Shown here: one piece after another, positions 5,862-7,686 of the stretch
Position numbering within the stretch: the stretch's first letter is position 1
Layout of the letters: each line of letters opens with the position of its first letter
Virus record (IMG/VR): IMGVR_UViG_3300013233_000202
Location: 1-21,075 of that record
Direction: 5' to 3' (one strand)
DNA length: 21,075 nucleotides
Source of the DNA: a virus
Made by a program: the position numbers and the translations under genes
Notes under the pieces: model-generated
Databases searched by the model: none
Seen by the model: the letters and a program-made list of their open reading frames with translations, nothing else
Told to the model about the DNA's origin: nothing

Positions 5862-6119
5862 ATGAAAAAACATAAGGTATTGGAAAAACTGGATTCTGTT
5901 TTTGAGACTGGATATGATGTATTCATAATTTTTAGTTTTCTTACCACAGTTTTTACGGTTATAGGCGGCACCATCTTTTCGTTTTTTGGACTTACATATC
6001 TCGCGTTTTCCTACCCAGGAATCGTCGTGATAATCGCAAAAACGATTATTGCAGTCATAGCCGTTTGGATTTTGTTCGGAGTCGTTTGGCACGTTACAAA
6101 GAAGCGCCGTGCTCGTTAA
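5862..6119 (+). CDS. Two-TM miniprotein A
   Basis: An 85-residue membrane protein with two hydrophobic segments (about residues 19-47 and 52-76), a charged N-terminus and a basic C-terminal tail (KKRRAR). The end of the second segment, AVWILFGVVWHVTKK, has a W-x6-W pattern and resembles the same position in the proteins at 6377 and 6633, so I treat the three as likely divergent paralogues. The ribosome site is TAGGA 6 nt before ATG. An inner-membrane role such as superinfection exclusion or lysis timing is possible (T4 Imm is a similarly small membrane protein), but no sequence match to a known family is claimed. Confidence 0.8.
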   Translation: MKKHKVLEKLDSVFETGYDVFIIFSFLTTVFTVIGGTIFSFFGLTYLAFSYPGIVVIIAKTIIAVIAVWILFGVVWHVTKKRRAR

Positions 6120-6126
6120 TACAGTA

Positions 6127-6156
6127 GTTTACTTCTCCTCTTTTCTGTGATATAAT
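6127..6156 (+). promoter_or_regulatory. T4-early-type promoter (GTTTAC -35, consensus -10)
   Basis: -35 TTTACT at 6128-6133, exact 17-bp spacer, perfect -10 TATAAT at 6151-6156, and extended -10 TGA (6148-6150). This is the strongest promoter in the window. The predicted start is near 6163, giving an RNA leader of only about 17 nt that still contains GAGGAG. Confidence 0.85.
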
Positions 6157-6175
6157 AAACAAGAAAAGAGGAGAA
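6133..6175 (+). promoter_or_regulatory. Inverted repeat enclosing the -10 box and masking the ribosome site (copy 2)
   Basis: Perfect 14-bp arms at 6133-6146 (TTCTCCTCTTTTCT) and 6162-6175 (AGAAAAGAGGAGAA) with a 15-nt loop containing TATAAT. The right arm includes the Shine-Dalgarno GAGGAG (6168-6173), 6 nt before ATG 6180, so in read-through RNA the ribosome site is fully paired. Relative to copy 1 the arms differ in sequence but remain complementary. Confidence 0.8.
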
Positions 6176-6179
6176 TAAC

Positions 6180-6380
6180 ATGAAATTCAAAAATTATATG
6201 GACTTCGAACGTCAAGTTTTAGAGCTTAAAAAGTCTGGAAAAAGCAGAGAAAACATAGAAAAACTCTGTATGAAATCTTTTCCGGACTGGACCGAGGGTC
6301 AGATGGCCGCGAATTTAGATCCGTTCTTTTCGACAAAAAAGTATCTTAACGTATCAAAGAAAACTCGTAGAGGAAAATGA
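6180..6380 (+). CDS. Small soluble hypothetical protein
   Basis: A 66-residue basic protein, largely helical by composition (DFERQVLELKKSGKSRENIEKLC), with no TM segment, placed between two membrane miniproteins. The GAGGAG ribosome site is optimal and lies in the arm of the promoter hairpin. Its TGA overlaps the next start (ATGATG at 6377). The helical N-terminal part with a helix-turn-helix-like rhythm and basic tail (KKTRRGK) might bind nucleic acid, but this is only an impression; no family is recognised. Confidence 0.75.
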   Translation: MKFKNYMDFERQVLELKKSGKSRENIEKLCMKSFPDWTEGQMAANLDPFFSTKKYLNVSKKTRRGK

Positions 6381-6649
6381 TGAAAAGATTCGATAAATTT
6401 ATGGAGATGGGAGCATCGATGCTATACGTTGTTGTTTCGTTTTTCCTCATCGTTGCGTTCATTGGGATCGTCGCTGCAATAAAACGCTTTCTCGATAATA
6501 TTGTAGTTCCTTATTTTTCGGAGAACCCTCAACTACTTTTGACATACGTCAGAGTTGCTCTTGTCCTGTTTTTATCTTGGGTTGGGATTGGCGCCATTTG
6601 GGTTAAGACGAAAAAGATTCATAGAGGCAAATATGAGAAAAATTCTTAA
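6377..6649 (+). CDS. Two-TM miniprotein B
   Basis: A 90-residue protein with two hydrophobic segments (about residues 13-35 and 52-75) separated by a short polar loop containing PYFSENP. It opens with FDKFMEMGA and closes the second segment with WVGIGAIWVKTKK; both ends match the protein at 6633 (ADRFLEIGS; WILVGSIWVQIKK), and the tail also resembles the protein at 5862. ATG 6377 overlaps the previous stop by 4 bp and ATG 6380 is an alternative. The gene overlaps the next by 17 bp. A tandem family of small inner-membrane proteins is the safest description. Confidence 0.8.
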   Translation: MMKRFDKFMEMGASMLYVVVSFFLIVAFIGIVAAIKRFLDNIVVPYFSENPQLLLTYVRVALVLFLSWVGIGAIWVKTKKIHRGKYEKNS

Positions 6650-6881
6650 ATACGCCGATAGATTCCTAGAAATTGGCTCGCTCTTAACCCCTTGGGCTGC
6701 CGCCTTTTCTGTTTTTATGGGAATCATGTTTGTCCTAAACGCCGTAATCGAGGCTCTCGTTAGTTATTTTTACGATAATCCGGATGCCTTTCTGGTGTAC
6801 CTTATAGTTTTTATTGGGGCTATTGTGTCTTGGATTCTCGTAGGGTCTATATGGGTGCAGATAAAGAAATTTCTACGTTGA
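6633..6881 (+). CDS. Two-TM miniprotein C
   Basis: Starting at ATG 6633, preceded by AGAGG about 7 nt upstream, this is an 82-residue protein. The frame is open further upstream, but that part lies inside the previous gene and gives an unlikely N-terminus. Two hydrophobic segments (about residues 17-42 and 52-76) flank a loop with SYFYDNP, matching PYFSENP of the preceding protein. The conserved start (ADRFLEIG) and end (SWILVGSIWVQIKKF) mark it as the closest paralogue of protein B. No terminator follows; the next recognisable element is the tmRNA promoter at 6951. Confidence 0.8.
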   Translation: MRKILKYADRFLEIGSLLTPWAAAFSVFMGIMFVLNAVIEALVSYFYDNPDAFLVYLIVFIGAIVSWILVGSIWVQIKKFLR

Positions 6882-6950
6882 GAACTAAAATTTTCACCGA
6901 TTCGATAGCTGTTACAGATAAGTAACATGATGAATGATTCAAATTATCGA

Positions 6951-6980
6951 GTTTACAATATTGATGATACATGATAAATA
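6951..6980 (+). promoter_or_regulatory. T4-early-type promoter for the tmRNA gene
   Basis: -35 TTTACA at 6952-6957 within GTTTACA, 17-bp spacer, -10 TAAATA at 6975-6980 with extended -10 TGA (6972-6974). The predicted start near 6987 lies just upstream of the acceptor piece of the tmRNA. Upstream, 6882-6950 holds no gene; it contains a small hairpin, TGTTAC/GTAACA at 6910-6927, without a T-tract. Confidence 0.65.
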
Positions 6981-7048
6981 TGACTTGAAATTGATGAAAC
7001 AATTTGAAGATGGATCGGACCTGGGGGCGGTACCCAGCGACTCCACCA

Positions 7049-7153
7049 TCAGCAATCTCCACTGAACGGGCGCATGGTCTTAGTAGGTGCATTCTAGAAT
7101 AATAGTAAGTGATCATAACATTATTCTGGTACTGGTTCGAGATTGTTGATGAT
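7049..7153 (+). other. Intervening segment of the permuted tmRNA precursor
   Basis: This 105-nt segment between ACCA and the coding half should be removed on maturation. ATCAGCAATCTC (7048-7059) pairs with GAGATTGTTGAT (7139-7150) over 12 bp with one G-U, stacking on the acceptor stem, and AGAATAAT (7096-7103) pairs with ATTATTCT (7120-7127) inside it. The result is one long hairpin holding both ends of the acceptor stem together. Confidence 0.75.
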
Positions 7154-7234
7154 GGGGTCGAAATAGGATAGACGGACATTGGATGAACGTGGAGATTTTC
7201 GTTTGAATCGCGTTATAGATTCGAAAAAGTAAGT

Positions 7235-7273
7235 GCAAACACAAATAACGCACCTTTGAGAATGGCAGCCTAA
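7235..7273 (+). other. tmRNA tag reading frame
   Basis: Resume codon GCA at 7235, twelve codons ANTNNAPLRMAA and TAA at 7271-7273. The start parallels the usual ANDN/ANDE opening and the MAA end fits the hydrophobic-Ala-Ala degron read by ClpXP-type proteases (family knowledge). It follows the typical run of A before the resume site (GAAAAAGTAAGT). Confidence 0.8.
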
Positions 7274-7344
7274 GGCTTCTTCTCGACGGGTCGGGAGGAA
7301 CCTTGGAACAGAATCCTCTATTCTCACATAACAAGGAAATAAAA

Positions 7345-7686
7345 ATGAAAAAAGTATTACTAACGACTACTGCTCTTCTGTTCTCTGGAACGGTTGCAAT
7401 GTCTAATGAATTCGGAAGAAACACCGAAAACCTGTCTGGCTCTGCCGCTGCGACTCATAGTTTTCAGACTGGAACAAACGCTATCAATCTTACCGGTGGC
7501 GCCGCAACTACAGTATGGGGCGTGAAGGTATACGGCAACACCAAGTATGATCTTGTTGGAAAAACTTGGTCTGGTGCTAATATCGGGGTAACAAAAAAGC
7601 TTGGCGCTAACGTTTATGGCGATCTTTGGACAAATCTTAATACCGGATCACAGACAGTGACCGCTGAGGTTGGTTTCAACTTCTAA
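7345..7686 (+). CDS. Small exported beta-rich protein, possibly outer membrane
   Basis: A 113-residue protein with a textbook signal peptide (MKKVLLTTTALLFSGTVAMS, cleavage near residue 18-20). The mature part of about 94 residues is rich in Gly, Asn, Thr and alternating hydrophobic residues and ends in AEVGFNF; a terminal Phe after a beta strand is the usual signal for outer-membrane insertion. That is too short for a full 8-stranded barrel, so it may oligomerise or be a soluble beta protein. ATG 7345 has AAGGA 7 nt upstream; the open frame before it overlaps the tmRNA end and is not used. It directly follows the tmRNA and its stop overlaps the HAD gene as TAATG. A receptor-masking role is conceivable but unproven. 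Confidence 0.75.
   Translation: MKKVLLTTTALLFSGTVAMSNEFGRNTENLSGSAAATHSFQTGTNAINLTGGAATTVWGVKVYGNTKYDLVGKTWSGANIGVTKKLGANVYGDLWTNLNTGSQTVTAEVGFNF

Follow-up and report, generated by a model that had tools for sequence, protein, structure and literature searches.

The 21,075-base virus contig analysed here, referred to hereafter as the window, carries a phage ssrA gene that is intact and has the circularly permuted, two-piece form found in alphaproteobacteria. ARAGORN called a permuted tmRNA (tmRNA*) on the + strand at 6956-7364, with the tag ANTNNAPLRMAA, as the only RNA gene in the window. Two Rfam covariance models matched the same region far above their cut-offs: alpha_tmRNA (RF01849) aligned over its whole length at 6934-7322 with 105.5 bits (cut-off 50, E 3e-28), and tmRNA_permuted (RF04321) aligned at 6987-7273 with 95.7 bits (cut-off 47, E 9e-18). 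The initial annotation, made from the letters alone, had proposed a phage-encoded permuted tmRNA of this type at 6990-7319. Both the identity and the location are borne out by these searches, with the RNA extending a few bases further at each end, to about 6987-7322. This RNA folded better than 100 of 100 shuffled sequences (z -3.4). Features of the locus are listed in Table 1.

Table 1. Features of the tmRNA locus and its surroundings in the window.
Feature	Position	Strand	Basis
Promoter-like stretch (TTTACA, 6952-6957; GATAAATA, 6973-6980)	6952-6980	+	Inferred from motif position across phages
Acceptor piece (P2 strand, T-arm, acceptor 3' strand, ACCA)	6987-7048	+	RF04321 and RF01849 alignments, sequence
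Intervening segment (105 nt), presumably removed	7049-7153	+	Folds, comparison of length and stems
mRNA-like piece (acceptor 5' strand, D-region, P2 strand, tag frame, P5, 3' hairpin)	7154-7322	+	RF01849 alignment
Tag reading frame ANTNNAPLRMAA (GCA...GCC), stop codon TAA	7235-7270; stop 7271-7273	+	ARAGORN
P5-like hairpin, stop codon in the loop	7258-7284	+	Fold
3' hairpin (GGGAGG...CCTCT), conserved alpha 3' region	7294-7319	+	Fold, RF01849 alignment
Signal-peptide protein ending in GFNF, outer-membrane-like	7345-7686	+	Same position and F-x-F end in ten relatives; low-confidence all-beta model

All of the parts named in the initial annotation are present. The order of the parts is permuted, the CCA end (last base 7048) preceding the start of the acceptor 5' strand (7154). 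Read directly from the sequence, the T-arm is CTGGG-GGCGGTA-CCCAG (7021-7037), followed by the acceptor 3' strand CGACTCC (7038-7044) and ACCA (7045-7048). The acceptor 5' strand GGGGTCG (7154-7160) forms seven pairs with CGACTCC, including a G-U at the third position (G3-U70). In tmRNA, a G-U at this position confers alanine identity, and it was present in 11 of 11 distinct phage sequences and in all seven distinct bacterial sequences compared. The stems are kept in related phages: the T-loop GGCGGTA, the stems and G3-U70 are conserved across the 11 phage sequences, although some loci were found with a pattern that fixes part of the T-arm and CCA bases, so that invariance at those bases says little. 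Several pair types occurred among the same sequences at positions 5 and 6 of the acceptor stem and at positions 49 and 50 of the T stem.

The tag frame starts at an alanine resume codon, ends in Ala-Ala and has its stop codon in the loop of the P5 hairpin. The tag closes, as host tags do, with a hydrophobic residue before Ala-Ala; here the residues preceding Ala-Ala are Arg-Met. Rhodobacterales tags include ANDNRAPVAMAA, ANDNHAPVAMAA, ANDNRAPMAMAA and ANTNRAPVALAA, and the length, AP element and MAA ending of the window tag all fall within the Rhodobacterales range. A special tag with which the phage redirects rescue, as had been suggested, is therefore not favoured, because the tag is normal for Rhodobacterales down to the MAA end, which chromosomal copies such as ANDNRAPVAMAA share. 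The same comparison bears on the idea that the RNA works against trans-translation in the host, inhibiting or diverting it through, for instance, titration of SmpB or a tag overlooked by proteases. A tRNA-domain-only tmRNA of the phage DS6A type has been reported to inhibit host tmRNA, and the Arg-Met before Ala-Ala could be taken in its favour; yet the mRNA-like domain of the window RNA is complete and MAA ends occur on host chromosomes, leaving inhibition quite improbable. As a separate observation, permuted tmRNAs on three other viral contigs (L087, L089 and L113) have a very long predicted tag, AKKSTTFASILPVKVERVSLVQEALAASA.

The best explanation, which we hold to be highly probable, is that an intact phage ssrA RNA, cut in two, works with host SmpB in ordinary trans-translation and adds ANTNNAPLRMAA. 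Host tRNA-processing enzymes would cut the transcript and remove the 105-nt intervening segment; the two products, an acceptor piece (about 62 nt) and an mRNA-like piece (about 169 nt), would stay joined through base pairs. Alanine would be loaded onto the acceptor end, which has the G3-U70 pair, and with host SmpB the tmRNA would enter ribosomes stalled on broken mRNAs, where the tag would be added to the nascent chain and the ribosome released. The phage might benefit in that ribosomes stay free while mRNA is being degraded. We infer processing, charging, use of SmpB and benefit from known two-piece tmRNAs, and ordinary trans-translation with host SmpB is most likely the main role. If so, such phages would themselves sustain the rescue of ribosomes in the cells they infect. 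Neither the window, a 21 kb fragment, nor any of 11 other phage records, some of them 140-168 kb, yielded an SmpB gene. Host SmpB is therefore presumably used, and the function of the phage RNA would depend on the host.

The window represents part of the genome of a T4-like phage, probably an aquatic one. The genes near the tmRNA are of phage type and include UvsX (phrog_97), a DnaB-like helicase (phrog_19) and ThyX. UvsX had no relative of at least 60% identity in the cultured-phage collection and thus, judged by UvsX, the phage has no close cultured relative. The nearest relatives of the B12-dependent ribonucleotide reductase were the enzymes of Lentibacter and Roseobacter phages (62-67% identity), which makes a Rhodobacterales host likely. 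An alphaproteobacterial host, as originally proposed from the RNA, is likely but is not proven by the RNA type, since Methylophilales phage Melnitz carries a two-piece, alpha-type tmRNA and infects a gammaproteobacterium (PMC9004378). Three small consecutive membrane proteins are encoded at 5862-6881, between a DUF3310 gene and the tmRNA; three relatives (L095, L101 and L109) have one 76-residue membrane protein where the window has these three.

Phage two-piece tmRNAs are known in kind, dozens having been reported from aquatic phages. A 2022 survey counted 53, 50 of them marine or aquatic (PMC9004378), so that a phage copy is not unusual. Melnitz and the surveyed phages (PMC9004378) resemble the window in having a permuted, alpha-type tmRNA in a T4-like phage with thyX within about 2 kb, and Melnitz also has a long intervening segment (142 nt). 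In contrast to the window, Melnitz has the tag ANDNYVPVDYALAA and a different gene order around the tmRNA; a further difference is that Rfam matched no glutamine riboswitch in the window. The roseophages DSS3_MAL1, MD18 and DSS3P8 share with the window the permuted alpha form, segments of 98-106 nt and, counted as a further likeness, tags that begin with ANTN or ANIN, but their tmRNAs lie in tRNA arrays and occupy a separate branch of the tree. The tmRNA of DSS3_MAL1 is annotated as ssrA, while permuted tmRNAs are present but unannotated in DSS3P8, MD18, RcRudolph and RcXuper. Chromosomal Rhodobacterales ssrA genes are like the window in their tags of 12-13 residues, which have a central AP and finish in MAA, VAA or LAA; unlike the window, those listed have segments of 22-46 nt and fall outside the phage clade. 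Two side observations concern other phages. In DSS3_MAL1 and DSS3P8 the permuted tmRNA is immediately preceded by GOLLD RNA (L122:925-1388 and L123:875-1308). In Sinorhizobium phage Phosso (L306, about 1970-2250), a T-arm and CCA end of alpha type precede a stretch of about 150 nt, after which comes a candidate acceptor strand whose third pair would be U-U; the region was rejected as a tmRNA because ARAGORN found none there.

With the intervening segment removed, the nearest relatives of the window RNA were phage tmRNAs (up to 64% identity), and the best bacterial match reached 54%; this divergence counts against the preferred reading. A maximum-likelihood tree, built on a short alignment with bacterial rows sampled by a single T-arm pattern, placed the window inside a 12-row phage clade (support 99/98) within a 21-row phage set (95/95) separate from 56 alphaproteobacterial rows. 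Because it sits in a phage-only clade, the window gene looks like an old phage gene; the evidence that it has long been one is good but not final. The window gene indicates that such genes are kept within phage lineages and are not freshly copied from hosts. A decayed or passively captured remnant of a host ssrA gene, now functionless, would fit the long end branch of the window (0.35), and another phage paper puts forward the suggestion that integration at host tmRNA genes may bring ssrA copies along. Against a remnant, the stems, G3-U70, tag frame and stop are all intact, the gene groups with phages and not on a host branch, and no integrase was identified among the window proteins searched, a subset of the ORFs. 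We regard decay or passive capture as very unlikely. Two other loci, L086 and L118, cluster with Rhodobacterales; they may have been captured recently or may be DNA of a host.

A pattern scan of IMG/VR returned many further phage examples, and tmRNA_permuted matched 13 of 19 records picked from related loci. The exact T-arm pattern of the window had no match in viral contigs, and the window RNA is a divergent, intact addition to the two-piece tmRNAs of phages.

The ends of the window's intervening segment are predicted to pair over 11-12 bp, extending the acceptor stem, and in most phages the ends pair over 8-12 bp with the same effect. Segments in bacteria had a median length of 25 nt and a maximum of 71 (106 copies), whereas those in phages ranged from 23 to 124 nt (24 rows) and were at least 65 nt in 16 of the 24 (Mann-Whitney p 1e-7, a value that ignores relatedness). 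Among cultured phages the segment is 98 nt in DSS3_MAL1, MD18 and RcRudolph, 106 nt in DSS3P8, 109 nt in RcXuper and 142 nt in Melnitz. In close pairs such as L103 (79 nt) and L101 (28 nt), the additional length sits in the loop. That segments tend to be longer in phage than in host copies is a simple difference that can be tested. Structured segments much longer than those of bacteria were seen in the window and in L002, L004, L005, L091, L125, L304 and L305.

A tRNA within the window segment was considered and rejected: Rfam gave no match, and the lone ARAGORN match, at a relaxed threshold, was about as frequent in shuffled sequences. At 80% of the ARAGORN threshold, tRNA-like shapes were found in five segments (L002, L003, L004, L091 and L125), where single-base shuffling of all 24 segments, a procedure that does not preserve stems, gave an expectation of 0.2. 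Rfam was run on two of these five and called neither a tRNA; the L125 segment gave a weak match to mascRNA-menRNA (E 0.017). Elsewhere, one report describes an intact tRNA-Ala inside a segment of this kind (PMC11915505).

Upstream of the RNA, GATAAATA resembles the T4 late promoter element TATAAATA, of which ATAAATA is the core. A start about 6 nt downstream of GATAAATA would coincide with the 5' end of the RNA. In the window and six other loci (L132, L091, L094, L105, L112 and L130), five of which are similar to one another, ATAAATA begins 75-78 nt upstream of the CCA end. This fixed position across phages is the sole support for the motif, which by count was not enriched over shuffles in the window. 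A sigma-70 scan found no + strand promoter near the tmRNA gene. The T4-late-like stretch is a candidate promoter of the tmRNA.

The gene downstream starts 22 nt after the RNA, with no terminator-like site found on the + strand between them, and is probably co-transcribed with the tmRNA. In 10 of 11 relatives checked, the next gene likewise encodes a signal-peptide protein ending in F-x-F, the exception (L052) being a secreted protein with a different end; script measurements in eight cases put the start of the gene 28-45 nt past the conserved ACAGAA of the RNA. An F-x-F C-terminus is common in outer-membrane barrels. The F-x-F proteins are very divergent, with low mutual similarity, a sequence search confirmed no relatives of the window protein, and its AlphaFold model (mean pLDDT 49) was too poor for a fold search. 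Because the proteins are little alike and the model is poor, the outer-membrane assignment is a lead only. That the RNA is mainly a processed leader of this gene, with trans-translation secondary, would suit the short distance, the recurrence of the arrangement in ten relatives and the lack of a terminator-like site, but tmRNAs occur without the gene in other phage clades and a leader has no need of a conserved tag frame and tRNA-like domain, so this is extremely unlikely. An extension of the preferred reading, ordinary trans-translation, would be, in this phage clade, a conserved late unit of T4-late-like promoter, tmRNA and outer-membrane-like protein, with the long structured intervening segment a functional RNA in itself and not waste, one transcript serving ribosome rescue and a second phage function; we think this unlikely but conceivable. 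Besides the window gene, F-x-F signal-peptide proteins were located at L132:1764-2150 and L092:1837-2199 and are also carried by L095, L108, L098, L114, L101, L103, L109 and L111.
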